A stretch of DNA of 64,000 bases from Acetobacter syzygii (lineage in GTDB: Bacteria > Pseudomonadota > Alphaproteobacteria > Acetobacterales > Acetobacteraceae): positions 124,001-188,000 of the forward strand of contig NZ_BAMZ01000008.1 of NCBI RefSeq assembly GCF_000964225.1, in the 5' to 3' direction. The translations under genes and the position numbers were made by a program. Below the pieces are notes generated by a model. The model did not search any database and had not been told where the DNA came from. It saw only the letters and a program-made list of their open reading frames with translations. This document shows, piece after piece, positions 25,380 to 41,190 of the stretch (position 1 is the first letter of the stretch; each line of letters starts with the position of its first letter).

Positions 25380-26291
25380 TTACTGGAACAGGGACAGGAT
25401 GTTCTGGGACTGACCGTTGGCGATCGAGAGGGACTTGATAGCCAGGGACTGCTTGGTCTGCAGGGAGGTCAGCTTTGCGCTTTCTGCGGACATGTCAGCA
25501 TCGGTCAGGGCGCCAACGCCGGTCGTCAGGTTGTCGGTCACGCTCTGGCCGAAGGTGGTCAGGTTAGCGATCTGCTTGGTGTTGTTACCCAGCTGAGACG
25601 TGAAGTTCGTCATCGTGGTGATAGCAGCCTGGATCGTGGAGATCGCAGCCTGCAGCTGGGTTTCGGTCAGCGTACCAGCGGTGGTGATCGTGCCGGTTAC
25701 GGTGTTGGTGCCAGCAGCGCCGGTCTTGGCCAGGCCGAGCATGACGCTCAGGGAGGCATCGGCAGTTACGCTTGCGTTTGCGCTGAAGTTGGTAACGGTT
25801 GCGAGGGAGCCCTGCAGACCGGTTACATACTGCAGGCTGCTTGCGGTGATTGCCAGGCTGGAGTCGGTCTTGCCGGCCAGCAGGTTCACGCCGTTGGTGG
25901 TTGCGCCGTTAGCAATGGTGTCGATCTGGCCCAGGTAGCCGTTGATTTCGTCGTTGATCTGGGACAGGGACGTGGTGCTGCCGGAGTTGTTACCGATGCT
26001 GGTCACAGCGTTCTGGATTTCGGCCAGAACGGACAGGATCTGGTTGGAAGCGGTGTTGGTGGAGCTCACAACGGAAGAAGCATAGGACAGGCCGTCATTC
26101 ACAGCGCTCTGGCCGGAGATGTTGCCGTTCATCTGGGAAGCAATGCCGAAGGAAGCAGGGCCGTCGGAAGCGTTAGCAACTTTTTTACCGGTGGAAACAG
26201 CGTTTTCCGTGGCGCTCAGCTGGCTCTGGGTAGCGTTCAGGGTTTCCAGAGCAACCATTGAAGAGGTGTTGGTGTTAATAGAAAGGCTCAC
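25380..26291 (-). CDS. fliC: Flagellin
   Basis: This is the filament subunit, exported through the flagellar channel. The start is a GTG at 26291, giving 303 residues beginning 'MSLSINTNTSSMVALETLNA'. It has GGAG eight bases upstream; the open frame continues upstream but without flagellin-like sequence. N-terminal residues 1-130 and C-terminal residues 220-303 form the conserved D0/D1 helices ('NVSLSINTN', 'LTSLQTKQSLAIKSLSIANG', 'ILSLFQ' at the end). The central region is short and rich in Ser, Thr, Ala and Gly, offering many possible O-glycosylation sites. The gene has its own terminator and a candidate CtrA box. Confidence 0.96.
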   Translation of the reverse strand: MSLSINTNTSSMVALETLNATQSQLSATENAVSTGKKVANASDGPASFGIASQMNGNISGQSAVNDGLSYASSVVSSTNTASNQILSVLAEIQNAVTSIGNNSGSTTSLSQINDEINGYLGQIDTIANGATTNGVNLLAGKTDSSLAITASSLQYVTGLQGSLATVTNFSANASVTADASLSVMLGLAKTGAAGTNTVTGTITTAGTLTETQLQAAISTIQAAITTMTNFTSQLGNNTKQIANLTTFGQSVTDNLTTGVGALTDADMSAESAKLTSLQTKQSLAIKSLSIANGQSQNILSLFQ

Positions 26292-26591: not shown

Positions 26592-27266
26592 TTAAGCGCT
26601 GGCGCGTTTTTCGTCCGTGCCGGAGGTCTTTTCCAGCGCCTTCAAATAAGGCCGCTCGCGGGTCAGTGTGGCGGGCATGGGCATGTCCAGCGTATCCGCA
26701 AACTGGGTTTTTGGGGGGGCTTCCTGCGGTTCCACAACGGCTGGCATCTGCTCTTCCACCGCTTTGGCCACGGCGTTCTGTGCGGCGGTGGCGTTTTCCA
26801 GCGCGGACTGGACCAGTTCCTGCGCTGTCTGCTGGGCAGTCTGGCTGGCCTGTTGCAGCTTTTCCAGTGTTTCTTCTATGGCAAGGCGCGCCTGCTCGGC
26901 TTGCTGGATCAGGCTTTCCATCCGCCGTTCCTGCGATGGCACCTGCGTAAGGACCGAATCCAGCCGGTCGGCAACCGAATCGGCTTTGGTGGCCATGTCG
27001 TCCAGCTCGGTGCCGGTTACCTTGGCCTGTTCGATCATCCGGCTCAGGGGGCGACCGCTGACCTCGCCTGCCACGCGGAGCTTGTCCACGCCTTCTTCAG
27101 CCTGATTGACGCTGCTTTCAAGCTTGTCCACCAGTTCCAGCAGGCTGGTGCGGTCGCGCTTGAGGTTGCCCAGCACCCGGCCAAGGTAAAAGCTGTAGAT
27201 AATCCCAAGGAACAAAAAGACGGAGAGAATGATCTCAATGATCATCTGGATCTGTGTGAACATCAT
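26592..27266 (-). CDS. DUF6468 flagellar-locus membrane coiled-coil protein
   Basis: The 224-residue product has one N-terminal membrane helix ('MIIEIILSVFLFLGIIYSFY', about residues 8-28). A long Glu/Gln/Ala-rich coiled coil follows (about 35-175), then a Pro-rich tail. This architecture and its place directly after fliM match DUF6468 proteins of alphaproteobacterial flagellar loci. Their function is unknown to me. It overlaps the fliM stop by 4 bp, which suggests translational coupling, and a terminator follows. Confidence 0.75.
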   Translation of the reverse strand: MMFTQIQMIIEIILSVFLFLGIIYSFYLGRVLGNLKRDRTSLLELVDKLESSVNQAEEGVDKLRVAGEVSGRPLSRMIEQAKVTGTELDDMATKADSVADRLDSVLTQVPSQERRMESLIQQAEQARLAIEETLEKLQQASQTAQQTAQELVQSALENATAAQNAVAKAVEEQMPAVVEPQEAPPKTQFADTLDMPMPATLTRERPYLKALEKTSGTDEKRASA

Positions 27267-28645
27267 TCAGGTGACCCTCCAGTCTGATCCGGGGTGGGCG
27301 GTGCAGCCTGAGGCTGCGGGTGTGGGGGCTGTGGCGGCACGCCCTGTGGAGGGGGCAGGTGGTGCTCCTCCGGGGGGACCAGCCTGCGCTGGATCTTGAC
27401 CGCATTTTTGTTGCCCAGCTTGCCCAGACGCCCTTCAAACAGGGGGGTCTGCCCGCATTGCAGACGAATGGGGAAGGGCGACCCACTTTTGTGCGGGAAG
27501 GTCATGAGGGACCCGATCTTGAGGTTGAGCACCTCGGAGAGCGGAACAATTTTTTCGTCAAACACAGCGGAAACCTGGGCGTCTGTTTCCAGAATTTCGG
27601 AAAACAGATGGTCTTCCCAGATCGAGTCGCGCCCGAATTTTTCCCCCATGAACTGTTGCGAAAGCTGGTCGCGCACCGGCTCCAGCGTGGCATAGGGGAT
27701 GATCAGGTCCATGTTGCCGCTGCGGTCCTCCATATCAATATGGAGTTTGGCCAGCACCACGGCGTTGGATGCACGGGCGATTGCAGCAAAGCGGGAGCTG
27801 ACTTCCAGCCGCTCAAACGCAAGGTCCACGTTACAGACCGGGTTAAAGGCGGAAGAGAGGTCGCTGAGGGTAAGGGTGATCAGCTTTTCAATCAACGCGC
27901 GTTCAATGGCGGTGTGGGGGCGTGTTTCCACCCCTGCGTGCCCAACGCCGCGCGGCCCACCCATAAGAATGTCGATAATGGAGTAGGACATGGCCGAATC
28001 CACAACGACCAGCCCGTAGTTGTCCCACTGAACGGCTTTGAAGACGGCAAACATGGAGGAGGATGGCACAGCCCCCATGTAGTCCCCAAAGCGCAGGGAG
28101 CGGATACCCTCGATCGTGATTTCCACGTTATCGTTGGTGAAGTTGCGCAAGGTCGCGGACAGGATGCGCACAAGCCGGTCAAACACGATCTCCAGCATGG
28201 GCAGGCGTTCGTAGGCCACAAACCCGGCCTTGATAACGCGCTCCATGCCGGTTTCTTCCGGCTCTTCAAACCCGCCAAATGTGTGGCCGAGCAGATTGTC
28301 AATTTCCGACTGGTCAAGCAGGTGGCTGCCAAACGGGTCTTCATCCGGTGTGGGGGTGTGCTCCCCCTGCTCGGCGGTGGCTGCGTGCTCGTCCGGGCTG
28401 GCGGGCGGCGTGGTGTTATGCCCGTCCTGCGTTGCAGTCTGGCCATCCGGCTCTGGTGTTGTGCCGTCTGGTCCGGTGCCGTCGTGGGGGGCATCTGGCG
28501 TGGCATTGCCTTCAGCAGGGGCGGCCTGTGGCGTTTGCTCCTGCGCGGCGTCGTGCGCCTCCTCCGTATGCGGGGCGTCCGGTGCTGCGTCTGTTCCGGG
28601 CTCGTGGTTCCCGGACCCTGCTGCTGTGTCGTCTACATCCTGCAT
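27263..28645 (-). CDS. fliM: Flagellar motor switch protein FliM with long N-terminal extension
   Basis: FliM is the C-ring protein that binds CheY-P. The middle domain shows 'EIVFDRLVRILSATLRNF' and 'GPRGVGHAGVETRPHTAIE', and the C-terminal SpoA-like part has 'SGSPFPIRLQCGQTPLFEG'. The CheY-binding motif 'LLDQSEIDNLLG' usually sits at the very N-terminus but here lies at residues 109-120. It is preceded by about 105 residues rich in Asp, Glu, Pro, Thr, His and Gly. Total length is 460 against a usual 320-370. No start codon nearer the motif gives a normal-length protein, so the extension seems real. fliL lies 62 bp upstream. Confidence 0.95.
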   Translation of the reverse strand: MQDVDDTAAGSGNHEPGTDAAPDAPHTEEAHDAAQEQTPQAAPAEGNATPDAPHDGTGPDGTTPEPDGQTATQDGHNTTPPASPDEHAATAEQGEHTPTPDEDPFGSHLLDQSEIDNLLGHTFGGFEEPEETGMERVIKAGFVAYERLPMLEIVFDRLVRILSATLRNFTNDNVEITIEGIRSLRFGDYMGAVPSSSMFAVFKAVQWDNYGLVVVDSAMSYSIIDILMGGPRGVGHAGVETRPHTAIERALIEKLITLTLSDLSSAFNPVCNVDLAFERLEVSSRFAAIARASNAVVLAKLHIDMEDRSGNMDLIIPYATLEPVRDQLSQQFMGEKFGRDSIWEDHLFSEILETDAQVSAVFDEKIVPLSEVLNLKIGSLMTFPHKSGSPFPIRLQCGQTPLFEGRLGKLGNKNAVKIQRRLVPPEEHHLPPPQGVPPQPPHPQPQAAPPTPDQTGGSPE

Positions 28646-28707: not shown

Positions 28708-29220
28708 TTACTGGACAAGGAATTCGACAAGATACAGGTTTGTCACCTGCAAGGGGGCAAGCTGTGCACGCAGGCGGCGCAGAATGGATTCGCGCAGCCT
28801 GTAAATGCCGTTGCCCCGAATATCCTGCGGCCGGGTTTCATGCAGGTAGGTCTGGAACACGTCCTGAATTTCCGCAATCCGGTCCTGTAGCGCGGCCTCG
28901 TTTGGTACACCGCTGATTTCCACCTTGGCGGTCAGCTTGACGTAAACCGGATGCCCGCCCGACGTATCCAGATTGGAGACCATGGGGGGAATACCCAGCA
29001 GAATGGGCGGGTGCATGGCGGCAGCAGCCTTGTTGCCCATGTCCCGCTTGAGCTTGGACGTAAAGATTTTATCCTTTTCCCAGTAAACCCCACCACCGAC
29101 AAGGAGAACAAGACCGGCAGCGCCCGCCATAATCAGTTTCCGCTTGGACTTGGGGGCGTCTGCTCTGGGAACTGCGTCGGCAGCATTTGCTTCTTTTGCG
29201 CCGGTTACAGTCTCGCTCAT
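28708..29220 (-). CDS. fliL: Flagellar basal-body protein FliL
   Basis: FliL is a single-span inner-membrane protein that surrounds the stator units. The 170-residue product has a short cytoplasmic N-terminus, one membrane helix ('LIMAGAAGLVLLVGGGVYW', about residues 30-48), and a periplasmic domain with 'HPVYVKLTAKVEISG' and 'YLHETRPQDIRGNGIYRLRE'. It is the first gene of the fliL-fliM-DUF6468 unit on the - strand. Confidence 0.92.
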   Translation of the reverse strand: MSETVTGAKEANAADAVPRADAPKSKRKLIMAGAAGLVLLVGGGVYWEKDKIFTSKLKRDMGNKAAAAMHPPILLGIPPMVSNLDTSGGHPVYVKLTAKVEISGVPNEAALQDRIAEIQDVFQTYLHETRPQDIRGNGIYRLRESILRRLRAQLAPLQVTNLYLVEFLVQ

Positions 29221-29481: not shown

Positions 29482-30558
29482 CTAGCCGATTGAACGGTGC
29501 GTGGGGGCACAGTACAGCACGGTCTCTTCCGTATGAATGGTATAGTGGCCAATATAAAGGGAGTAAAAATCAAAATTCGATTTTATATAGTTGATTATTT
29601 CAAAAATATCATTCGGTTTGTGGTACAGTGAAATGGCCATTTTGGGGCGGAAGCGCCGAATACTGGCTTCTGCTCCTTTAAGGGTTGCCATTTCTGCCCC
29701 TTCTACGTCCAGTTTGATGAAGTCAATCTGTTTGATCTCATCGCGCGCAACAAGACGATCAAGCGAAGTAAGCGGAACAGTCTGCTCCTCGTGCGAGAAG
29801 CCGGGTGCATAGTGCTCGTTCACCAAGAGCGGTGCCCTGACCTCGTGATCAGAGAGACCATACGGCATGGGCACAACATTGGCATAAGGGAACTGTTTGG
29901 TATTGTAGGTCAGAATATCAAAATGTTCCTGAACGGGGTCAAAGGAATAAACTTTGCCGCCAGCCCCTACCGCGTTGGAAAAAACCAGAGCGGTATCCCC
30001 TGTGCAGGCGCCACCATCAATAACCGTATCGCCCTGTTCGGGTCTTATGCGGATGCCATCTTGATCATAAAAATACTGTTTGCGGTGCAGGTAATATTCA
30101 AAACCAAGGCAGTCTGCAATGTATCTTTCTCCGTCAAAAACAAAGTCAAAATGCTTTAGTTTTCCAATGGTGCCAGCAAGCGGGTAAGTGCTGTCGGCCG
30201 TACCAGCAAGCGCGTAATAGGATTGCAGGTCATCCTGCCGTGCACGAAATTCCAAGGGTAACTGAAAACACAGATGGCCGACCATGCGGTATATGATCAG
30301 GCAGAGGTAGAGCAGCTTTGAATGCTCGCCCGATAGGGCCATATAGCTTTGGAAGAGTGATTCCTTGTTGAAAAAGAACCATGTAAAATAAAAAACTCTT
30401 TTATTGGGGTCGAAATCCTGTGAATGGTCTGTTCCATCAGTATTAAAACGCTCTGCATCAAAATTATCCTGAAAATGGTTATCTTTCAGGCTGGTGAGAG
30501 CAATGTGCATAATCGTGCTGTAAAATGAATCAAGGTTGTCTGGTAAGGTATTGGACAT
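29482..30558 (-). CDS. FkbM-family SAM-dependent methyltransferase
   Basis: The 358-residue product has a C-terminal Rossmann methyltransferase domain from about residue 165. Motif I is 'DTVIDGGACTGDTALVF', then 'GKVYSFDPVQEHFDIL', 'IDFIKLDVEGAEMATLKGAE' and 'MAISLYHKPNDIF'. FkbM enzymes methylate hydroxyls of sugars and polyketides. The first 160 residues are helical and of no recognised family. It is the last gene of the acyl-sugar operon, 125 bp after the Rieske gene. That gap holds a hairpin at 30642-30665 and an AT-rich leader that could carry an extra promoter. It probably O-methylates the sugar. Confidence 0.85.
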   Translation of the reverse strand: MSNTLPDNLDSFYSTIMHIALTSLKDNHFQDNFDAERFNTDGTDHSQDFDPNKRVFYFTWFFFNKESLFQSYMALSGEHSKLLYLCLIIYRMVGHLCFQLPLEFRARQDDLQSYYALAGTADSTYPLAGTIGKLKHFDFVFDGERYIADCLGFEYYLHRKQYFYDQDGIRIRPEQGDTVIDGGACTGDTALVFSNAVGAGGKVYSFDPVQEHFDILTYNTKQFPYANVVPMPYGLSDHEVRAPLLVNEHYAPGFSHEEQTVPLTSLDRLVARDEIKQIDFIKLDVEGAEMATLKGAEASIRRFRPKMAISLYHKPNDIFEIINYIKSNFDFYSLYIGHYTIHTEETVLYCAPTHRSIG

Positions 30559-30683
30559 GATGAATATAATCCTGATCTGGAAGAAAAGTGGTTAATTTCT
30601 GGAAAAATCAAAAATTAAAGTATTTTTGAGGAGATTTCCTGCGCATGGTCCAGGCAGACCATGCGTCGGCTGGTGTGGGGTGT

Positions 30684-31730
30684 TTACGCGGATGTGCCGT
30701 GTGCCTGCCTTCTGGCATCCACCTCTTCCACACATTTACGGAAATGCAGGATTTTCTCTTCCGTGTTTGAGAGAATGCTGTTGTGGGAAGTGAGCGGAAA
30801 ATCCGGGGCAATGCGTTTGCAGATTTCAAAGTCTTCCTTAAAAACCGTTTCATTGACCTGTTCAACGGAGTCAAGAAAAGGCTTTATAATTTCTCTATTT
30901 TTCTCTGCATTGACCAGTCTGGAGTGGAACATGCGTGTGGTAAAATACGTTTTCTGTTTTTCACCAGATGGCAGAAAATTCTGTAAGGAATAGGTGTAAC
31001 CATATGTGCTGGAGAGGAACGAAAATGGGAAAATATAAATTGCTGTATAGGTTTTCTGGCTATGGGGGACATCAAAAAAGCGGGCAATCCTGTTCAGACC
31101 GCGTGTTATGGTCTCGTTCCCAATCGAGGCGTTCAGTACGGAATTATAAGTGTAGTAGGAGTTCCGGCCTGCATGGAGGTGCAGCAGGTTGAGCGTGTTG
31201 GTGTGCACAAGGGGCACGTGGTCTGGTTCCAGCGCGTTTTCCACTGCAACCTGCCACTGGCATTCATAAGGGTAGTCAATCCGTGCGTGCCGCTGGGTTA
31301 TATCGTGCGACATCCCTGCCAGAATATCCGCCAGCCCCCCAAGCTGGGTGGGCAGGTCTGTAAGGGGGGTTATGGCAACAAATAAAAAATCTCCACACCA
31401 TGCGGTATGGTAGCTGTTCAGGCGTACACGTTCCAGATCGCAGGGTTTGTAGTTTTCCGGTTTGGGAATGCGGAGCTTGCCCCCCCTGTACCCCCAGCCA
31501 TGGTATGCGCAGGAGAGCGGCTGGTTGCCGTCCCTGCCCAGCAAAAACCGGGCACCGCGGTGGGGGCATATATTATCGAATGCGACAAAGGTTCCCTTGT
31601 CGTTGTAAATAACAAGATCGCCCAAAATCCATTCAAAGCGTAAAAAATCCCGGTCATTGGGCAATTCGCTGCGGTGCGCAATGCAATGCCAGAAATTGCG
31701 GGCCAGATACTGGTCAAGGGCTTGGGGCAT
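30684..31730 (-). CDS. Rieske non-haem iron oxygenase
   Basis: The 348-residue product is an oxygenase of the ring-hydroxylating alpha-subunit type. The Rieske [2Fe-2S] ligands are Cys55/His57 ('ICPHRG') and Cys74/His77 ('SCAYHGWGY'). The mononuclear iron ligands are His171 and His176 in 'EPDHVPLVHTNTL'. The family includes aromatic dioxygenases but also single-component monooxygenases acting on lipids and natural products. In this cluster of sugar and acyl-chain genes, an aromatic substrate is unlikely; oxidation of the sugar or its acyl group is inferred. It follows the acyltransferase by 4 bp. Its electron-transfer partner is not in the window. Confidence 0.88.
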   Translation of the reverse strand: MPQALDQYLARNFWHCIAHRSELPNDRDFLRFEWILGDLVIYNDKGTFVAFDNICPHRGARFLLGRDGNQPLSCAYHGWGYRGGKLRIPKPENYKPCDLERVRLNSYHTAWCGDFLFVAITPLTDLPTQLGGLADILAGMSHDITQRHARIDYPYECQWQVAVENALEPDHVPLVHTNTLNLLHLHAGRNSYYTYNSVLNASIGNETITRGLNRIARFFDVPHSQKTYTAIYIFPFSFLSSTYGYTYSLQNFLPSGEKQKTYFTTRMFHSRLVNAEKNREIIKPFLDSVEQVNETVFKEDFEICKRIAPDFPLTSHNSILSNTEEKILHFRKCVEEVDARRQAHGTSA

Positions 31731-31734
31731 GGGT

Positions 31735-32358
31735 TTACAGCTTGCGGGCAGGGGGGGTGTACATGGTCACATTGTTCTGGGTGGAGCGTACAACAACCGC
31801 CCCCGCCCCAATGGTGCAGTGTTCGCCTACATGCACATGGGGCAGAACCCGCGCACCGGAGCCTACAAAAGACCCTTTGCCAACAGTGCTGTTGCCGGTC
31901 AGGTCCACATAACCAGAGATCGTGGCAAATGGCCCCAATGTGGCATCGTGCCCAACGCTGCCGTAGCCGTTGACCGTAGCAAATTCACCCACGGTGGCAT
32001 TGGCCGAAATATCGGCAAAAACACCAACAATGGCCCCTTGGTGGATGGTGGAAGAGGCAGAAACCCATGCCGTAGGGTGGATAAGCGTTGCAAACTGTTC
32101 CGGGCCAAGCAGGCCAACAATTTTCTGCTTCCCGGCGGGGGAGCCAATAGCCATGACCAGCCTGTGGTCCGGGCTGGCAGGTTTGTACCCGGCAATGGTG
32201 CCAAGTTGGGGCAGGGGGTGGTTGTAAGCCCGCAGGGGGTCAGCGCCATCGTCCAGATAGCCAATAAAGCGGCTCCCCGATGCGGTCAGGGATGGTGTAA
32301 ACCAGTCGTATAATTCGCGCGCAAAGCCGCCGCCGCCAACCAGAATATACTCAGCCAT
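31735..32358 (-). CDS. NeuD/PglD-like sugar O/N-acyltransferase
   Basis: The 207-residue product starts 'MAEYILVGGGGFARELYDW', the N-terminal nucleotide-sugar-binding fold of NeuD/PglD proteins, and then has left-handed beta-helix repeats ('TIHQGAIVGVFADISANATV', 'ATVNGYGSVGHDATLGPFAT', 'HVGEHCTIGAGAVVVRST'). Relatives transfer an acyl group from CoA or ACP to the amino group of UDP/dTDP-4-amino sugars. With an acyl carrier protein in the same operon, an acyl-ACP donor is plausible. It lies 6 bp after the SDR gene. Confidence 0.85.
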   Translation of the reverse strand: MAEYILVGGGGFARELYDWFTPSLTASGSRFIGYLDDGADPLRAYNHPLPQLGTIAGYKPASPDHRLVMAIGSPAGKQKIVGLLGPEQFATLIHPTAWVSASSTIHQGAIVGVFADISANATVGEFATVNGYGSVGHDATLGPFATISGYVDLTGNSTVGKGSFVGSGARVLPHVHVGEHCTIGAGAVVVRSTQNNVTMYTPPARKL

Positions 32359-32364
32359 GCGCCA

Positions 32365-33120
32365 TTACCCCGCTGTGTAGCCGCCATCCACAGGCCAGAC
32401 GGCCCCCGTTACCCAGGCCGTAGCCGGGGATAGTAAAAAGACTGCCGTTGTTGCCACATCTTCCGGTTTGCCAAAGCCCAGAACATGAGCGTGCTCGTAA
32501 TCTGCGGTGGATTGCTCCGACAGGCCATTCAGCAGGCGGCTGTGCATTTCCGTTTCCACCCCACCGGCGGCAATGGCGTTCACACGGATGGAGCGCAACT
32601 CCCACGCAAGCGAGCGGGTCAGCCCCTCAATGCCAGCCTTGGCGGCGGAGTAGGTGCTTAACCCCTGCTGCCCACGGTGTGCCGCAGCGGAGGACATGAA
32701 CACAATGGAACTCCCCGTGCGAAAAACATCGCGCTTGCCCGCAGCGGCCGCAATGCCAATGGCCCCAAAAAGAGCGGCATTAAAAACGGCGTCAATCTGT
32801 TTTTGTTTAACAAGGCGGGCCGGGCGGCTGAGTTCTATGCCTGCGGAGTGAAAAACGCCGTCCAGACCATTAGCCTCCCGAGCAGCATCCACAATTAGTG
32901 CCGTGGTTTCTTCCGCAGTGTTCAGGTCCGCCACCACCATTTTATGCCCTGTGCCGGGCAGGGTGGAGAGTGTGGCTGCCAGCCGCTCCTCGTTACGGCC
33001 GGTTGCCACCACATGGCCACCACACCGGGCAATAAGCAGTGCCGTGGCACGCCCCAGACCGGAGGATGCCCCGGTCACCAGAATGGTACGCCCCTCAAGG
33101 GCTGTGGGGGTGAAAATCAT
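32365..33120 (-). CDS. Short-chain dehydrogenase/reductase (FabG-like)
   Basis: The 251-residue SDR has the NAD(P)-binding '[17 protein letters not shown]' (TGxxxGxG, about residues 15-30), 'FHSAGIE' (NAG-type), the catalytic Ser in '[11 protein letters not shown]' and 'YSAAKAG' (YxxxK), and ends '[15 protein letters not shown]' as in FabG. The start at ATG 33120 overlaps the synthase stop by 4 bp; an upstream in-frame start would overlap more. Next to a KAS III and an ACP, it likely reduces the 3-oxoacyl-ACP to 3-hydroxyacyl-ACP. A sugar oxidoreductase role is a weaker alternative. Confidence 0.85.
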
Positions 33121-34136
33121 ACAGTGATCACCGACGCACACTGGAGCTGAACATCCTTGAACAGCGCAGCCCCCCAGGACAGACCAACGCCAAAACCTGC
33201 CATAAGCATGGTCGTGGGGGTGGTGGTGATCTGCTCCACCCTGTCCGCGCAGAGCAGCAGGGGAATGGAGGCGGAACTGGTGTTGCCAAACTGGTCAATG
33301 TTAATGGGCAACTGCTCGGGGGTCAGGCTCAGCTTTTTGCCAATGTGGCGCAGAATAAAGCGGTTGGCCTGATGCAGGGCAAACAGGTCCACCTGATCCT
33401 TTGTGGTGCTGGCCTGTTCCAGCGTGGCTTTGATCAGTTTGGGAACGGTGCCAATGGTAAAGCCAAAAACCGAGCTGCCATCCATGTGTAGGTAATTGGC
33501 ATCGGTCGCCTGTGGGTCAACCGGACGGAACCCGCCGCCTGCAACGGTCAGGAAGTTGGCCCCCTTGCCATCCGTGCCAAGGTCAAAATAGCACAGCGGC
33601 GCGTTGGCATCATATTCAAATGCCGTGGCGGAGCCTGCATCTCCGAACAGTAGGGCGGTGCTGCGGTCGTTCGGGTCGACCATACGGCTGCTGGTATCGC
33701 CCGCCAGCAGCAGCACGCGGCGCAGGCCAATGGCCATAAGGGCAGAGACCAGCCACGCCCCATAAACGTACCCGGAGCAGCCAAGCCCCACATCAAACGC
33801 CTGGCAGTGCGGGGCAAGGCCAAGGCGACCATGCAGGATGCAGGCCGTGGCAGGCATACGCTGGTCAGGGGTCTGGGAGACAAAAATAACGGCGTCCACG
33901 CTCTCACGCGGCCAGTTCAGGTCTTCCAGCAGGCGGTCGGCTGCGGCAAAGCACAGGTCCGATGCGGTCTGCTCGGGAGCGGCCATATAGCGGGTGGAAA
34001 CCCCGGTCAGCTCCGTAACGTCTTTAATTGTTTTTTCATCAAAACGCCCCGTAAAATAATCATTTTCCACGCGGTGCTGGGGAAGAGCGCAAACAACACC
34101 GCGTAGTGTGATGCCTTTGACGGAGCATTGAGACAT
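33117..34136 (-). CDS. 3-oxoacyl-ACP synthase III (FabH-like)
   Basis: The 339-residue product carries the KAS III triad: Cys120 ('LGCSGYVYG'), His in '[12 protein letters not shown]', and Asn in '[13 protein letters not shown]'. FabH-type enzymes condense an acyl-CoA with malonyl-ACP. Here, with a dedicated ACP and a FabG-like reductase, it would make a short 3-hydroxyacyl-ACP for acylating an amino sugar, as proposed for viosamine-type flagellin glycan islands of Pseudomonas. It lies 11 bp after the ACP gene. It is probably not the housekeeping FabH because of its cluster. Confidence 0.88.
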
Positions 34137-34147
34137 GGAAAAAACCC

Positions 34148-34381
34148 TTATCCTGCGGTGGCTGTGGGGATAAGTTTCTGAATATCAGCCACGGATGTGC
34201 ATTTGACCAGTTCCGAACCGGAGACGATATGCCCGAATTCCTCGTCGATCAGGGCCACGCAGGAGATCACTGCCATTGAGTCCCAGTTATGCTCGGAGAG
34301 ACTGAAAGACGGTGTAATCTGCTCCACAGGCACTTCCAGAATTTCGGCAAGACCTGCATAAAAATTTTGCATAACATTCAC
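34148..34381 (-). CDS. Acyl carrier protein of the sugar-acylation operon
   Basis: The 77-residue acidic protein has four helices and the phosphopantetheine site Ser35 in 'NWDSMAVIS' (the usual DSL is DSM). It would carry the acyl chain built by the neighbouring KAS III and SDR. It is the first gene of its operon, 36 bp downstream of the -10 of a strong promoter. AT content upstream is high relative to the rest of the window. Confidence 0.88.
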   Translation of the reverse strand: MNVMQNFYAGLAEILEVPVEQITPSFSLSEHNWDSMAVISCVALIDEEFGHIVSGSELVKCTSVADIQKLIPTATAG

Positions 34382-34416
34382 TCTGGGTTGGATTGTTAAT
34401 TATAAAAGGTTCTGTA

Positions 34417-34446
34417 ATTTTAAAGATAAATTTTTAAATTTGTCAA
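34417..34446 (-). promoter_or_regulatory. Sigma70-type promoter of the acyl-sugar operon
   Basis: On the - strand, TTGACA (consensus -35) and TAAAAT (near-consensus -10) are 18 bp apart. The -10 ends 36 bases before the ACP start codon. The AT-rich block 34395-34446 stands out in this GC-rich genome. A hairpin (GGGCGG/CCGCCC, 34512-34527) lies between the glycosyltransferase stop and this promoter. Confidence 0.8.
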
Positions 34447-34553
34447 CCATTCCTTTCGGTTGCCCCCGTGCCTGTGGCGGGTGCAGGCAACCGGGTGCCC
34501 TGCTGGTAACGGGGCGGAAAACCGCCCTTTGCCACGCCATGGTGTGGCCAGCA

Positions 34554-35771
34554 TCAGCGATAGAGCATGGAAGGGGGGACGGCGTTTTCAAACGCATTGG
34601 CTGTATGAATTTCTTTGGCGATTTCAAGTAATGATTCCATGAATTTTGCACAATTAAAATTCTGGGCAATGTAATCAACGCCAACCTGTGTTTCGGCCGT
34701 GTAATCTTTCTGGCTATGGTACAGCGTGTGGAACTGGTCCGCGAGTGTGGGGTCCGTTGTATCAAAACCATAAAACGTGGGAATATGTTTAAGGTTTTCG
34801 CGCGTAAAGCTGTTCTGGTCTGAGACCACAACGCAGCGTGAATCTAGACCCTGCCCCACACGTTCATGAAAATTGGATGCGATATTGGGTGATGTATTCA
34901 AAAGGAACTGCGTGCTCGCATACACGCTGGAAAGATGCGTGGCATCAAATGCGGAATGGAATTTGGCCTGTGTGGCAAGGGGTGCCAGATGGTCCCACCC
35001 GCGCCCGTAAATGTTAACGGGCAGGTCCAGCAGGGCGCGGACCACCACGTTCATGCGGTATTCGCGCACATACAGGTCGAGTTCGTGCAAAAGACCATGA
35101 AAAATCTCAACCCTGTGCTCGGTCGAGAGGTTGTGGCTTGCGCAGGCGTTAACAAAAATATCGGTAATGTCCCCCGTAGGCAGGTTCACGGCAACGCTGC
35201 TGGCGTCCTCCATCACGTTGCGCCAGCGTGCGGGCAGGTTTTTCCAGCTCTGGCGGCGTTGCTCCGGGTTGCCGCCGGTCTTGATCATCACCATACGCTG
35301 CGGCCGGTCCCGCCAGGGTATGGCGTCGCGCTTGGTGTTGGGCGTAATGCCCAGATGCGGAATGAGCGTGGACAACTGGGGGGATTTGATAAAGCGGTTC
35401 TGGACCTGCAACCACTCGGAAAAAACATAGGCGTTTGCCACATACCGCGAGCGGATAAAGTGGTTGCGCACACACCAGCTTGGCGGGTCCGCCAGAACGG
35501 AAACAAAAGGGATTTTAAGAGTATCCCAGATGATTTCGTTATTATTTTCCAGCAGGGCGGCAATGCCCGCGTGGGACCACGCCATGGCAATCCCTTCGTC
35601 CGAAAGTTTGCCAAACTGCGTAATCCAGTCCGGGTCATACAGGTTGATCACATGGGTGCTGAACCGGGCCGGGTCCAGAAAGCTCATGAAGTCGAGGCTG
35701 AACTGGCGGAGAATATTGTTTTCGTTCTGACCGACAAAGGCGACAATATTGCGAGGGGTGGTCATGGTCAT
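34554..35771 (-). CDS. CgeB-like glycosyltransferase
   Basis: The 405-residue product resembles GT-B fold transferases of the CgeB / glycosyl transferase group 1 type. Its C-terminal part has 'VNIYGRGWDHL', 'YASTQFLLNTSPNIASNFHERVGQGLDSRCVVVSD', here cited as adjoining segments, where the HER/E region contacts the nucleotide sugar. No signal peptide or membrane helix is seen. It lies 58 bp after the aminotransferase. It could attach the modified sugar to flagellin or to a growing glycan; the acceptor is not shown by sequence. Confidence 0.7.
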   Translation of the reverse strand: MTMTTPRNIVAFVGQNENNILRQFSLDFMSFLDPARFSTHVINLYDPDWITQFGKLSDEGIAMAWSHAGIAALLENNNEIIWDTLKIPFVSVLADPPSWCVRNHFIRSRYVANAYVFSEWLQVQNRFIKSPQLSTLIPHLGITPNTKRDAIPWRDRPQRMVMIKTGGNPEQRRQSWKNLPARWRNVMEDASSVAVNLPTGDITDIFVNACASHNLSTEHRVEIFHGLLHELDLYVREYRMNVVVRALLDLPVNIYGRGWDHLAPLATQAKFHSAFDATHLSSVYASTQFLLNTSPNIASNFHERVGQGLDSRCVVVSDQNSFTRENLKHIPTFYGFDTTDPTLADQFHTLYHSQKDYTAETQVGVDYIAQNFNCAKFMESLLEIAKEIHTANAFENAVPPSMLYR

Positions 35772-35829
35772 GGGGCCTGTTCAGCAAATATGGGGAGAGG
35801 GCTTTGTGCAGGCCGTCAGCCTGCTCCCG

Positions 35830-37098
35830 CTAGGACCCTTCGTTCAGCAGGGCGCATACGCGGGTAATCTGCCCGGCTGTCAGGTCCTGCCAGAAGGGCA
35901 GGCCAATGGAGCGCTGGCCATAGGTCCGGGTTACAGGCAGCGGCTCGCTGGGGCAGTTGGCGTAGGCGGGTTGTGTGTGGCAGCCCGTCCCCCACCACGA
36001 TACGGTCTGTACGCCATGGGCTGCAAGGTGCTGTATGGCGTCCTGCGCATCCGTGGGGGTAATAACGGTCAGTGTGGCGGATACCCAGCCATTCCCAAAA
36101 TCGGGAGGGAGCATCATGCTGGCGGGGAGTGCCTGCCGGTATAGGTCTGTAATGTGTTGCCACCGTGCGCGGGTTTCATCCCAGCAATCCAGCCCGGCCA
36201 GTCCAACGGCCGCCGTGTATTCAGAAATTTTGGCATTCATGGAAGGGAAGAGCGAGGACCGGCTACCACAAAAACCAAAGCGGGCCAGAGTGCGCACATG
36301 TTCGGCCAGAGCCGGGTCGTGCGTTAGCACGGCACCGCCCTCGCCAATGCCAAAAATCTTGGTGGCGTGCAGGCTGACCACAACTGTGCTGCGGCCCGGC
36401 CGCATTGGGCCATTGTGGCGGAGTGTGTCAAACGCTGCGGCGGCATCAATAATAACAGGCCGCCCCGTGCGTTCGGCCACGCCATCCCACAGGGCAAGAT
36501 CCAGCGGTGCGCCAAACGGGGCAACAATAAAAATTGCCCCTACGTCTTCCGCCTGAGCAAGCTGTTCAATCTGTGCGGGGTCGGGCACCCACGTAGTGGG
36601 GCATACATCCACAAAATGGGGGACCAGATTGGCCCCCATAACGGCCGCCGCACTGGCCGTAAAGGTCCATGATGGCATAAGGCAGCGGGTGCCGGGGCGA
36701 ATATTATGTGCCTGCAAGGCCAGTGTAAGCCCCGTGGTGGCGTTGGTCACCAGTGCAACCTGCATGGCATCCAGCCCCCAGAACGCGCCAAGCCGCTGCT
36801 GGAGCGCATTACACAGCGGACCCTGGTTTGTGTACCAGCGGTTCTCGTCTATCTGGCGCAGATAGGGGGCGATCCGGTCGGTTGTGGGTAGGCGGGGGAA
36901 GGCAACGGGGAGCGTAACGTCCGGTTTACGGTCTACCGCCAGATTATGCAGGTTTTTTGGGGCTGTCTGGGGGGCTGACTTGTCTGTTCCAAAGTCAAGA
37001 GGCTGCGTGACCAAGGCCAATTTTCTTTCGCAAATATCGGGCCTGGCAGATTGTCCGCTTGTGGCCCCCAACAGGTTACATTCAGGCTTACAAAGCAA
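35830..37098 (-). CDS. DegT/VioA-like PLP-dependent sugar aminotransferase
   Basis: The product matches the DegT/DnrJ/EryC1/StrS family: 'NRWYTNQGPLCNALQQRLG', 'TNATTGLTLAL', 'PFGAPLDLALWD', the PLP Asp in 'VIIDAAAAFD', and the Schiff-base Lys in 'VSLHATKIFGIGEGG'. Family members aminate NDP-4-keto-6-deoxy sugars. No ATG lies in frame before the family domain. A TTG at 37098 (422 residues) is the longest option, and a TTG near residue 27 is a shorter one, so the N-terminus is uncertain. It is the first gene of the cluster. No rmlA/rmlB gene is nearby, so the 4-keto sugar must come from elsewhere. Confidence 0.85.
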   Translation of the reverse strand: MLCKPECNLLGATSGQSARPDICERKLALVTQPLDFGTDKSAPQTAPKNLHNLAVDRKPDVTLPVAFPRLPTTDRIAPYLRQIDENRWYTNQGPLCNALQQRLGAFWGLDAMQVALVTNATTGLTLALQAHNIRPGTRCLMPSWTFTASAAAVMGANLVPHFVDVCPTTWVPDPAQIEQLAQAEDVGAIFIVAPFGAPLDLALWDGVAERTGRPVIIDAAAAFDTLRHNGPMRPGRSTVVVSLHATKIFGIGEGGAVLTHDPALAEHVRTLARFGFCGSRSSLFPSMNAKISEYTAAVGLAGLDCWDETRARWQHITDLYRQALPASMMLPPDFGNGWVSATLTVITPTDAQDAIQHLAAHGVQTVSWWGTGCHTQPAYANCPSEPLPVTRTYGQRSIGLPFWQDLTAGQITRVCALLNEGS

Positions 37099-37391: not shown

Positions 37392-37988
37392 TTAATGCAC
37401 GGCGGGGATGGTGGTGTTCACCCTGTCCGCCAGCCGAATAACCAGTTCACGCATTAGGGCGGCAACATCCGCATCTGTGCTGACCGACCCGTTGGCAACA
37501 AGGTGTGCGCGTTCACGCGTAAGGGGCAGGTTGGGGTCACGCGGGAGCACGGCCCATGTGGCGTCCAGCGTGGCCACGCCATTGGCGGCCACATCAAAGC
37601 GGGAAATATCGATCTGCACACGCATGGTGGCCACATCGGCCAGTGGCTGGTCGGTAATCAGCTCCGTGGGGCGTTTGTTGGACAGCTCGTTGGTCAGCAG
37701 GTCCGTAACCCCAAGGGACAGGCGCGAAGCCCAGCGCGCGCGTGAACTACGCAGGATTTCCTCCCCCTGTCGGGTAATAATATCCTGCGAGTCCAGATAG
37801 TCGGGCAGGATAACACGGCTGATGGCAATGGTGGCCGTGCGGGAGGAGAGGTGCGGCTCCGTTACGTTGGCATCGGGTGGTACACCCAGCGTGTACAGCC
37901 GCAGCGGCGGGGAGGCGCAGCCTGCGAGGGAGAGGAGCGAGCAGCAGGCTATAACGGCCAGCAGGGTGCGGCGTGGCGCGCAGGTCAT
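37392..37988 (-). CDS. ABC transporter auxiliary lipoprotein (PqiC/YmbA-like)
   Basis: The 198-residue product has a lipoprotein signal ending in the lipobox 'LSLAGC' (Cys about residue 24). The domain shows 'LRLYTLGVPP', 'TATIAISRVILPDYLDSQDI', 'RQGEEILRSSRARWASRL' and 'MRVQIDISRFD', typical of PqiC/ABC-type transport auxiliary lipoproteins. It probably is the outer-membrane or periplasmic partner of the MCE transporter encoded upstream. It overlaps the MCE gene by 4 bp and is the last gene of the operon. Confidence 0.87.
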   Translation of the reverse strand: MTCAPRRTLLAVIACCSLLSLAGCASPPLRLYTLGVPPDANVTEPHLSSRTATIAISRVILPDYLDSQDIITRQGEEILRSSRARWASRLSLGVTDLLTNELSNKRPTELITDQPLADVATMRVQIDISRFDVAANGVATLDATWAVLPRDPNLPLTRERAHLVANGSVSTDADVAALMRELVIRLADRVNTTIPAVH

Positions 37989-38941
37989 GGGCGGCGTCCC
38001 ATCAGCAGGAGTTGCGGGTTGCGTTCAACATCGGAGGAAAAACCCCGCAGGGATGCAGCCGTGGCCGCAATATCGCGCAGGGCGGCGTCCAGGTTGGCAC
38101 GGTCCGTGGAGCGGGGGGAGAGAATATCCTGCAACGAATCCAGCGTTCTGGTGGCCGAGGCCAGTGTTGCGTGCAGGTCCGCACCCCGCGCGTTAAGCTG
38201 GGTGTTCCCCGTTTCCATCAGCCTGTCCATTTTGGTCAGTGTAACGTCCAGCTTGGCCTGAAGGTCTTTTATGGCGGCGGTTGCGGCCTCTATGGTCTCA
38301 TGCGAGCGGTCGGCAGTTTCCCTGGCGCTCATCAGCAGGGGGGGCAGGTCCCTGTTCAGGCTCTCACTAAGCTGGGTCACGGACAGCAGTGCTGCATCCG
38401 CATGGTGGCTGATCTCCTTTATGGGGATCTGGCCCAGCGAATCCTTCAGCTTTTCCACGGCGGACATACGTACGGGAATTTCGGGCAGGTCGGTAATGCG
38501 CGGGTGCAGAACGGGGGGGACGGAGCGGTCAAAATCCAGCTCGATGTTGGACTGGCCGGTTACAAAGCTGAGCAGGTTCAGCTCCGCCCGCAGGCCAATG
38601 CTGATCAGTTCCTGAATACTGACCTTTTTGCCCCCCGGTACGTCCTTGACCACATGGATCTGGTCCGGCTCCAGCGTCAGCACCACGGGGATGTAGGCTT
38701 TGTGGTCGGCGGGGTCAAAGCGCAGGGTAATGCTTTTGACCGTACCCACCTTGACCCCACGGAAGTTGACCGGCGCCCCAACGGACAGGCCGGTAATGGA
38801 GTTCTGGAATACCACCACCGCCTCGCGCGAAGGGGCGAGGAAGCTCATGTGCCCAAAGGCCATAACAATGAACAGGGCCAAAAAGCCGCCAAACAGCACG
38901 AAGGCTCCGATAACGGTTTTGCGGTTTGTGCTCTCAGACAT
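37985..38941 (-). CDS. mlaD: MCE-domain lipid-binding protein MlaD-type
   Basis: The 318-residue product has one N-terminal membrane helix ('TVIGAFVLFGGFLALFIVM'). The MCE domain is at about residues 38-125 ('ITGLSVGAPVNFRGVKVGTV', 'VHVVKDVPGGKKVSIQELIS'), followed by a long helical tail (about 130-318). MCE proteins form hexameric tubes that carry phospholipids between membranes. The long tail is like PqiB/YebT-type or alphaproteobacterial Mce proteins rather than short E. coli MlaD. The start overlaps the ATPase stop by 8 bp. Confidence 0.9.
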   Translation of the reverse strand: MSESTNRKTVIGAFVLFGGFLALFIVMAFGHMSFLAPSREAVVVFQNSITGLSVGAPVNFRGVKVGTVKSITLRFDPADHKAYIPVVLTLEPDQIHVVKDVPGGKKVSIQELISIGLRAELNLLSFVTGQSNIELDFDRSVPPVLHPRITDLPEIPVRMSAVEKLKDSLGQIPIKEISHHADAALLSVTQLSESLNRDLPPLLMSARETADRSHETIEAATAAIKDLQAKLDVTLTKMDRLMETGNTQLNARGADLHATLASATRTLDSLQDILSPRSTDRANLDAALRDIAATAASLRGFSSDVERNPQLLLMGRRP

Positions 38942-39728
38942 GCCGGTCAGCCTTTGTCTCGTCTGTCGGGGGGATGGTGGAGGAGCGGTTCATGAATGCC
39001 ATGACTTCCGGTATGGTGCTGGTATCGCGCAGGGTTCGTGGGGAGCCGTGGGCAATGGGTTTGTGGGTTTTGGCATCCAGAAAAATGCCATCATCGGCAA
39101 TGGCGAACAGGCTTGGCAGCTCGTGGCTGACAATCACAATGGTCGCGCCCAGTCCATCGCGCAGGGTCAGGATCAGGTCGTCCAGCCGGGCGGAGGTAAT
39201 GGGGTCCAGCCCGGCGGAGGGTTCATCAAAAAACAGAATATCGGGGTCGAGGGCTATGGCACGCGCCAGCCCCGCGCGCTTGCGCATCCCGCCCGAAATT
39301 TCGGACGGGAACAGGTCAATCGCCTGCTCCATGCCCACAAGCCCCAGTTTAAGCTCCACCAGCTTGCGCACCACATCGGGCGGCTGGGAGGTAAACATTT
39401 CCATGGGCAGGGCTACGTTCTCGCCCACGGTCATGGAACTCCACAGTGCGCCGGACTGGAACAGAACGCCAAAGCGGTGGTTGATCTGGGTGCGGCGCTG
39501 CTCGTTCTGTGCCCAGTAATCCTCCCCGCCGACCATAATCCGCCCCGTGGTGGGGGGCAGCAGGCCGATCAGGCTTTTGAGCAGCGTGCTCTTGCCGCAG
39601 CCAGACCCGCCCATGACCGCAAAAATGGAGCCCCGCTTGAGGTCGAACGATACGTTCTGCTGGATAATCTTGGGACCAAAGGACAGTTCAACATCCCGCA
39701 CGGAAATAAGGGTATCGGTTTCCGCCAT
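38934..39728 (-). CDS. mlaF: ABC transporter ATPase MlaF-type
   Basis: The 264-residue ATPase has Walker A 'GGSGCGKSTLL' (about residues 36-46), the signature 'EISGGMRKRAGLARAIALDP', Walker B 'ILFFDEPSAGLDP', and the switch His in 'TIVIVSHELPS'. It powers phospholipid transport with the MlaE permease, which lies 3 bp upstream. The sequence class is the Mla/Mkl family. Confidence 0.94.
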   Translation of the reverse strand: MAETDTLISVRDVELSFGPKIIQQNVSFDLKRGSIFAVMGGSGCGKSTLLKSLIGLLPPTTGRIMVGGEDYWAQNEQRRTQINHRFGVLFQSGALWSSMTVGENVALPMEMFTSQPPDVVRKLVELKLGLVGMEQAIDLFPSEISGGMRKRAGLARAIALDPDILFFDEPSAGLDPITSARLDDLILTLRDGLGATIVIVSHELPSLFAIADDGIFLDAKTHKPIAHGSPRTLRDTSTIPEVMAFMNRSSTIPPTDETKADRHV

Positions 39729-39731
39729 GTC

Positions 39732-40919
39732 TTAAATTCCCAGCGCGTTGGCCATAACGGCAAACACGGCGTCCATGGCAATAATGCCAACAATGCCAAT
39801 AACCACCGCCCGGGTTGCGGCAATGCCCACATCGGCGGCACTCCGCCCGGCCATAAGCCCTACGCGGCAGGCGGCAAGGGCAATAAAGCTGCCAAAAAAG
39901 AAGGCTTTGACAAACCCGAACCCGAACTCCTTCAGCTCCACACCGTTAATGGTGGAAATCCAGTACCCTACGGGGGAGACATCCATCATGCTCATGCTCA
40001 CCACAAACCCGCCCAGAATGCCAATGAGCGTGCCGTACAGGTAGAGCAGGGGCATCATCAGGGAGAGGGAGAGAATGGCAGGCAGCAGAATATAGCCCGA
40101 AATGGGGATGCCAAAGACCTGGAGTGCGTCAATTTCCTCATTCCCCAGCATGGTGGAAATGCGCGCCGCATAAGCGCCCCCGGTGCGCCCGGCCATGATG
40201 ATGGCGGTCATAATGGCCGAAATCTCACGCGCGCAGGCAATGCCCACCAGATTGGTCACATAAATTTCTGCGGCAAAGCGGCGCAGCTCCACCAGCCCCA
40301 CAAAGGCCAGAATGGCCCCGATCAAAAAATTGACCACACCCACGATCAGCAGCGCGTTGGGGCCTGCGTTCCACAGGTCGGTTATCAGGTCCTTGGTGCG
40401 CATCCGGCTTTTGCCGTGCAGCGCATGGACCGCGCCCAGTGTGGTTTCCGCCGCAAGGGAGGTGGCAATGCCGGTTTCGGTCAGGGCGCTTAAGGTCAGG
40501 TCGCCGGTTTTTTCCAGCAGGTTCTGTTTGTGGCTGTCGTGGCGGGCGGCGGGCGCTGGCTTGGGGGGCAGTAGCGCCAGCAGGCGTTGTGCCGGGGCGG
40601 GCAGGCCGTTCTGGTCAAAGGCCAGCCCGGTGCTGGCTGCCGCCTGTTTGACCTCCCACAGGAAGGAAATAAAGGAGGAATCCCACGCCGCAAGAGCCGT
40701 TGTGTCCACGCTGAGTGTGGTGGAGCCTGAGGGCGGGGTGGGAATATCCTGCCCTGCAAATGGCATGACCCCGCCGTTGGGCACGGTCCATGCTCCCTGC
40801 ACGCTCAGGCATGGGCCGTGTGGTCCGGTCCGCACGGACCACGTTGGCCGCGCGGCATGGTCTGCCGTGGCGGTGGGGGGGAGGGGGTCTGTTTGCTGGG
40901 TCATTGTTTGTGACGACAT
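39732..40919 (-). CDS. mlaE: ABC transporter permease MlaE-type with N-terminal STAS-like domain
   Basis: The C-terminal 260 residues form an MlaE permease: 'LRRFAAEIYVTNLVGIACAREIS', 'MTAIIMAGRTGGAYAARIST', 'GNEEIDALQVFGIPISGYIL' and 'VFAVMANALGI'. Residues 20-125 before it are soluble and resemble the STAS-type domain often fused to this permease in alphaproteobacteria ('LSVDTTALAAWDSSFISFLW'), like MlaB fused to MlaE. I used ATG 40919; ATG 40955 is also possible. It is the first gene of the mlaE-mlaF-mlaD-lipoprotein operon. Confidence 0.88.
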   Translation of the reverse strand: MSSQTMTQQTDPLPPTATADHAARPTWSVRTGPHGPCLSVQGAWTVPNGGVMPFAGQDIPTPPSGSTTLSVDTTALAAWDSSFISFLWEVKQAAASTGLAFDQNGLPAPAQRLLALLPPKPAPAARHDSHKQNLLEKTGDLTLSALTETGIATSLAAETTLGAVHALHGKSRMRTKDLITDLWNAGPNALLIVGVVNFLIGAILAFVGLVELRRFAAEIYVTNLVGIACAREISAIMTAIIMAGRTGGAYAARISTMLGNEEIDALQVFGIPISGYILLPAILSLSLMMPLLYLYGTLIGILGGFVVSMSMMDVSPVGYWISTINGVELKEFGFGFVKAFFFGSFIALAACRVGLMAGRSAADVGIAATRAVVIGIVGIIAMDAVFAVMANALGI

Positions 40920-41190
40920 TAAGACACGCCATGCCCGGCTGGCTAGTCCCGACATGGTGAAGGTGGGCCCGGCCCCGCCTGACCGGGGGCGGGCCGGGGC
41001 GTGCAGGTCTTGAGTTTGCTAATAATTTCCATGGTCAGGCATTTTCATCAGCCCAGCATTGCAGGCGCGCATTGCAGGGGGGCGCGGCCTCGGCTAGATG
41101 CAGCGCTTTGGCTGGCGCCGGGTTTTCCCCCGGTGGTGGCGGTCGGGGGTGTGCGGGCAACCACATGCTGCCGCGCAAACGGGAGTTACT

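Follow-up and report, generated by a model that had tools for sequence, protein, structure and literature searches.

The stretch analysed here, below called the window, comprises 64,000 nucleotides of Acetobacter syzygii (assembly GCF_000964225.1, contig NZ_BAMZ01000008.1, positions 124,001 to 188,000), and the system in question is a cassette of eight minus-strand genes at window positions 29482..37098, which a first-pass annotation had described as an acyl-sugar biosynthesis cluster with a Rieske oxygenase. The eight open reading frames (ORFs) are open at these coordinates and stand in the order given by that annotation. Their spacing is operon-like with gaps of 4 to 172 nt, and the genes of the 3-ketoacyl-acyl carrier protein synthase III (KAS III) and of a short-chain dehydrogenase/reductase (SDR) overlap. 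Seven of the eight ORFs matched Pfam models above the cut-offs, namely FkbM, Rieske together with the ring-hydroxylase catalytic domain, hexapeptide transferase, SDR, KAS III, acyl carrier protein (ACP) and DegT aminotransferase. The eighth showed a weak Glyco_trans_1_2 match (E 0.0072) and is conserved elsewhere, and the identities first proposed for all eight genes were borne out on these grounds.

In the direction of transcription the first gene encodes a DegT/DnrJ/EryC1 aminotransferase (35830..37098), which by Pfam and by relatives of solved structure is probably a thymidine-diphosphate (dTDP)-4-keto-6-deoxyglucose 4-aminotransferase of the VioA/DesI type; the best NCBIfam match was DesI at 169 bits, far below the cut-off of 650. 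Its start is doubtful, the codon being TTG and the alignments of relatives starting at residue 40-61. It is 59-61% identical to its counterparts in the three other genomes carrying the cassette and 31% identical to VioA of Burkholderia glumae. The putative glycosyltransferase of 405 aa (34554..35771) has 55-57% identity to proteins beside the same genes in those three genomes; a relative of solved structure was sought and none was found. It is followed by the ACP (34148..34381, Pfam PP-binding), which is conserved in relatives, and by the FabH-like KAS III (33117..34136), in which C120, H255 and N285 are unchanged across five aligned rows and are taken by us to be the Cys-His-Asn triad. The SDR (32365..33141) is 76-80% identical to its relatives and is probably a FabG-like 3-oxoacyl-ACP reductase, although the NCBIfam matches in the rows shown were all under cut-off. 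The NeuD/VioB-like hexapeptide N-acyltransferase (31735..32358) reached 155.9 bits with the NCBIfam model NeuD/PglB/VioB, the cut-off being 160.8, and its best match of solved structure was VioB (7txp, E 3.8e-20). In the Rieske non-haem iron oxygenase (30684..31730) the residues C55, H57, C74 and H77, presumably the ligands of the Rieske [2Fe-2S] cluster, are conserved together with H171, H176 and D300, presumably the mononuclear 2-His-1-carboxylate site; the best solved match was carnitine monooxygenase (E 4.5e-13). The last gene encodes an FkbM-type methyltransferase (29482..30558; 71.3 bits, cut-off 22.7). The aminotransferase, ACP, KAS III, SDR and acyltransferase that a viosamine-type island requires are thus all present, and no PseB, PseC, PseI or PseG was found among the eight genes with Pfam and NCBIfam, so that the cassette is not a pseudaminic acid island.

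The genes of the cassette differ in base composition. FkbM, Rieske and ACP have a GC content of 46-50%, the transferase 53% and the remaining four genes 59-61%, as compared with 57-64% in eight flanking or housekeeping genes, and the cassette may in part be a recent import. A plasmid search at the DNA level gave short patches only, in 3 records, and the 405-aa transferase had a single, weak plasmid relative. Scans of the region for promoters and terminators gave counts at the level of shuffled sequence. A promoter-like site with 11/12 consensus bases lies just upstream of the ACP gene (34446-34417, minus strand), such sites occurring in chance number.

Along the direction of transcription the order is an Mla-type operon, the cassette ending in FkbM, fliL (28708..29220), fliM (27263..28645), a DUF6468 gene (26592..27266) and flagellin, all on the minus strand, and fliL, fliM and the DUF6468 gene were recognised by Pfam. 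The flagellin gene fliC (25380..26291), whose product is the probable acceptor, matched PF00669 above cut-off at G000:C87:149869-150279; its start was set by comparison with a related genome (G006), the ORF reaching 26333. On the far side the cassette is bordered by the Mla-type lipid transporter operon of four ORFs (37392..40955, minus strand), named by resemblance, and then by truB, pnp and gyrA. For the Mla genes and flagellin, identification relied on their sequences and on relatives that were annotated or searched, not on a Pfam scan of those window ORFs, and the model annotation covered the window up to 50 kb. By this gene order the cassette sits at one end of the flagellar block, about 3 kb from flagellin, and not inside the flagellar locus as first placed.

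fliL and the Mla-type operon are the constant left and right borders of a variable slot, as shown by comparison of eight of the 49 genomes of the genus, the window's included, chosen by a FliL identity of >=91%. Glycan genes of four pathway types fill this slot in all eight and no slot is empty. The slot of G006 contains PseB, PseC, PseI and PseG, all above cut-offs, and a cytidylyltransferase, and this pseudaminic-acid set carries its own ACP, KAS III, SDR and Rieske. UDP-galactopyranose mutase was found in four slots, by model in G014, just under the NCBIfam cut-off in G025 and by sequence resemblance in G005 and G020, with transferases seen in G014, G005 and G020. Genes of the CDP-glucose pathway occupy the slots of G022 (all three genes scanned) and G065 (one). 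Relatives of the window's acyl-module and Rieske proteins occur in two of the eight slots, its own and that of G006, and these two have ACP, KAS III, SDR and Rieske in common while their sugar pathways differ and their Rieske proteins are 28% identical. The cassette is probably a swappable unit that builds a decorated flagellar sugar, and a fixed slot beside flagellin that is filled, among eight related genomes, with sugar pathways of four kinds offers a ready-made series in which to study how the flagellar surface varies. At the end of the G006 pseudaminic-acid cluster a 674-aa protein (L056 17892-19916, plus strand) showed only a sub-threshold polysialyltransferase match and is a candidate sugar transferase.

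The likeness to viosamine islands that was first noticed holds well, resting on an aminotransferase, the ACP, KAS III and SDR set and a VioB-like acyltransferase. In Pseudomonas syringae pv. tabaci 6605 the viosamine island consists of vioA, vioM, vioT, vioS, vioB, vioR and acp, and its product has been shown on flagellin, as described in PMC3927599. Compared by description, the pathway idea is the same as in the window, but that island has seven genes and no Rieske, and its VioT is 1,173 aa long. To the knowledge of the first-pass annotation, flagellin glycan islands carrying a Rieske oxygenase had not been described. This does not hold. In Xanthomonas, XCV2000-XCV2013 between fliE and fleQ encode a glycosyltransferase, Rieske, acetyltransferase, two SDRs, KAS III, ACP and aminotransferase (Table 5 of PMC3826837), and the scoring given there puts an ortholog, or putative ortholog, of this flagellar-locus Rieske in 12 of the 15 genomes under comparison. 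By these descriptions the aminotransferase, ACP, KAS III, SDR, acetyltransferase, Rieske and glycosyltransferase in a flagellar locus are common to Xanthomonas and the window, whereas Xanthomonas has two SDRs and fliE/fleQ as neighbours and no FkbM is named in the table. In X. oryzae pv. oryzae flagellin glycosylation is determined by GigX, an island of ten genes under RpoN2/FleQ control (PMC6859632, PMC8657755). Exactly ten of the XCV2000-XCV2013 genes are scored present in X. oryzae PXO99A in the same table of PMC3826837, and we infer that these ten are GigX.

A Rieske gene also lies beside flagellin in B. glumae BGR1 (NZ_DQ996271), where the order is flagellin, fliD, fliT, a gene for a tetratricopeptide repeat (TPR) protein, vioA, KAS III, ACP, SDR, acyltransferase and Rieske. 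There vioA, KAS III, ACP, SDR, acyltransferase and a Rieske 45% identical to that of the window lie within 7 kb by flagellin, but two KAS III genes are present, a large TPR protein takes the place of the 405-aa transferase, and no FkbM is among the genes listed. Since both Xanthomonas and Burkholderia flagellar loci carry a Rieske, the kind of island is already known and the claim of novelty falls. The NZ_DQ996271 record (L103) bears the name of a B. glumae plasmid, pBGF3, but carries flagellar and chemotaxis genes and may be a cloned piece of the chromosome. A literature search pairing Rieske with glycosylation islands or pseudaminic acid found no paper, and in the portions of the cited sources at hand no text assigns Rieske a role in these islands.

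Within the genus, a strong Rieske homologue was found in four of the 61 genomes searched, all four belonging to it, and a strong KAS III homologue in the same four of the 49 genus genomes, with a more distant one in G006. All eight genes are present in these four, which are the window's genome, G002, G018 and G031. Seven of the genes stay together in the latter three at 55-80% amino acid identity, with aminotransferase and transferase inverted in two, and a set conserved to this degree in three other genomes and at other loci is more than a chance assembly. RmlB exceeded its cut-off in each of the four carriers, and did not do so in the pseudaminic-acid type genome G006. In G031, RmlB-like (by model) and RmlA-like genes adjoin the cassette. 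In the genome of the window itself, about 120 kb separate the cassette from an rml locus that has ABC-export-like genes next to it. There RmlB was above cut-off by model, and RmlA and the rest were assigned by resemblance only, so that a supply of dTDP-4-keto-6-deoxyglucose is indicated on that basis. FkbM homologues of 64-66% identity occur in exactly the other three carriers among the 49 genomes, one weak homologue (29%) being present in a fifth; for independent genomes the chance of FkbM falling in the same four of 49 would be 5e-6, but these genomes are not independent of one another. Only in the window is FkbM linked to the remaining seven genes, and its lone orthologues (L136 9013-10089; L137 9497-10564; L138 9010-10077) stand among apparent housekeeping genes, a co-distribution without linkage. 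For the L136 gene the search match reported one TGA, although the reading frame stays open over 358 aa.

Beyond the genus, the KAS III and Rieske surveys of the class and the phylum scored at most five candidates per genome, so that their counts are lower bounds, and many neighbour identities rest on tblastn with window or G006 proteins, unrelated neighbours going unnamed. KAS III was found at E<=1e-70 in at least 15 of 385 class genomes, its own included. In the 14 others Rieske lay within 15 kb in 6 (0.48 expected) and flagellin in 5 (0.34 expected), the expectation using rounded genome sizes and related genomes. A draw across the phylum gave a matching Rieske in at least 7 of 398 genomes, these being the window's, G163 and five more; in four of the five it is clustered with KAS III, ACP and SDR, and two of these four have flagellin in the same 20 kb. 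On plasmid p3 of Azospirillum brasilense Sp7, pseG, KAS III, Rieske and pseI extend to a second KAS III adjoining flagellin. This island and those of G006, G403, G325, G223 and G319 are like the window in KAS III, ACP, SDR and Rieske, with flagellin <=15 kb from KAS III, but a pseudaminic acid pathway and a GNAT/PseH-like acyltransferase replace the dTDP-amino-sugar pathway and NeuD, and the Rieske is only 17-28% identical. On two other Azospirillum plasmids Rieske, KAS III, SDR and GNAT lie within about 15 kb among many genes, with no flagellin among the genes listed, and in G195 Rieske is on a 3.4-kb contig with PseG and KAS III is on another contig. FkbM-like stretches, some of only 80-100 residues, were seen in such clusters of G403, a Massilia metagenome-assembled genome, G604 and G755. 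Across several bacterial groups, Rieske seems to recur in such cassettes as a component that has been overlooked. Two or more Rieske genes per glycan cluster were found in G403, G163 and G099 (L090 9389-11586; L100 1007-3899; L092), so that each sugar there may be oxidised more than once.

We read the cassette as a viosamine-type flagellin glycosylation island in which Rieske hydroxylates the acyl arm, with a probability of about 0.58. A flagellin glycan as the likely product, as first proposed, is supported by the slot beside flagellin with glycan genes in all eight near genomes and by the likeness to B. glumae, A. brasilense and Xanthomonas. In this pathway RmlA and RmlB, encoded elsewhere, would supply dTDP-4-keto-6-deoxyglucose, and the aminotransferase would convert it to dTDP-4-amino-4,6-dideoxyglucose. 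KAS III, ACP and SDR would build a short 3-hydroxyacyl-ACP, probably 3-hydroxybutyryl, whose acyl group the NeuD/VioB-like enzyme would transfer to the 4-amino group. The acyl arm would then be hydroxylated by Rieske and the product perhaps O-methylated by FkbM, after which the 405-aa transferase would attach the sugar to flagellin. Gene identities, catalytic residues, conservation, co-distribution and the variable slot beside flagellin are what the sequences show, and all the reactions, the chain length, the Rieske target and the acceptor are predicted.

The recurrence of Rieske with two sugar pathways that have the acyl module in common is what suggests hydroxylation of the acyl arm. In the same flagellin island Rieske could instead oxidise the sugar, at a ring carbon or the 6-methyl, or remove a methyl group. 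Rieske enzymes are versatile, and both Rieske-associated sugar types are 4-amino-6-deoxy sugars at the acylation step, so that a common site on the sugar exists; yet the two cluster types have different sugars and nucleotides but share ACP, KAS III and SDR, and this alternative appears unlikely. Judged by gene company, the acyl arm is the better guess for the target of Rieske.

Several observations weigh against the proposed flagellin island. Of the four cassette copies in the genus, three lie away from flagellar genes: in G002, G018 and G031 no flagellar genes from the window were found within 34-35 kb around the cassette, and flagellin is encoded either on a different contig or about 500 kb from it. 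The expected company of KAS III, ACP, Rieske and FkbM by fliL/fliM was accordingly seen in the window and not in the other carriers, where FkbM is also unlinked. Flagellin is present in all five KAS III carriers as against 29 of the 49 genus genomes, which is not significant (P 0.06). The 405-aa transferase, in which Pfam-type scans found no TPR, differs from the large TPR-type enzymes of other such islands, although a large VioT-like transferase is in our view a variable and not a defining part of viosamine-type islands, and no reductase or ferredoxin partner of Rieske is found within the cassette, the rest of the genome not having been searched. The class-level excess stems from three families only (f60, f51, f115), and in the fifth genome of the phylum draw, G237, neither KAS III nor ACP is near Rieske and the surroundings look catabolic. 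In Rieske trees the window, G002, G018, G031 and B. glumae group together with a support of 99/100. A single origin of all cluster Rieskes was considered since a first tree of 44 rows had all 21 rows labelled as cluster rows in one clade (100/97), among them the Massilia row, whose surroundings bear the label out, and that of G195, but this was lost in a wider tree with six rows added and four dropped (G099b_frag, G223b_fla, o_L031, o_L021), in which one clade was not recovered, at least three label changes were forced, and the unlabelled G237 and G163c fell among the cluster rows.

The location of the other three copies also speaks for a cassette that makes a cell-surface polysaccharide, lipopolysaccharide (LPS) or glycolipid sugar and lies by fliL by chance, as do GT25 and Glf, two genes often found in LPS loci, in some neighbours' slots and the adjoining Mla operon, which concerns lipids. 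It had been anticipated that copies equally often far from flagellar genes and beside LPS genes would speak against a flagellin glycan; three of the four are indeed far away, but no O-antigen export or polymerase genes were recognised around them when ORF starts were inspected, no models being used. In addition, clusters of this kind adjoin flagellin in B. glumae, in A. brasilense and in several families, no flippase, polymerase or exporter is among the eight genes, and the rml locus and its ABC-export-like neighbours lie apart from the cassette; we consider a polysaccharide role improbable. A small secondary-metabolite or fatty-acid cluster, to which KAS III, ACP and SDR and the naming of the similar BPSL3323-3329 of B. 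pseudomallei as fatty acid biosynthesis in PMC4855414 would point, is very improbable given the aminotransferase, NeuD-like enzyme and transferase in the same operon and the tabulation of BPSL3323-3329 (a transferase, two KAS, SDR and Rieske) among raised genes with fliA and flhF in that paper.

Returning to the flagellin island, a broader and more tentative proposal, to which we give slightly less than even odds, is that Rieske is a portable tailoring part of flagellin glycan islands which would hydroxylate the short N-acyl arm made by ACP, KAS III and SDR on dideoxyhexose and pseudaminic acid alike, and that swaps of whole pathways at a fixed slot beside flagellin would diversify the filament surface between sister species. 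The demethylated flagellin glycan residue of P. syringae weighs 231 according to PMC3927599. Adding one oxygen gives 247.1 and a further methyl 261.1, and the proposal therefore predicts for the window not 231.1 Da but a residue of 247.1 Da, rising to 261.1 Da if it is O-methylated, which is open to test by removal of one gene. By this analysis a known but unremarked Rieske belongs to a set of genes that keeps recurring, in alpha- and other proteobacteria and with two unrelated sugar pathways. The B. pseudomallei flagellin glycan of 291.1 Da, for which the review PMC3958885 reports acetyl, formic-acid and perhaps acetamidino features, was considered as a trihydroxyhexanoyl-amino-dideoxyhexose; the mass fits (291.13) but so would many formulae, and this reading was not used.

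Two further genes of the flagellar region were noted. A protoglobin fused to a chemotaxis (methyl-accepting chemotaxis protein) signalling domain is encoded in the flagellar block (11704-13284, plus strand) and is likely an oxygen-sensing chemoreceptor. Beside flagellin (23825-25018, plus strand) lies the gene of a 397-aa protein for which no Pfam family and no relative of solved structure was found, and which is 84% conserved in G006.

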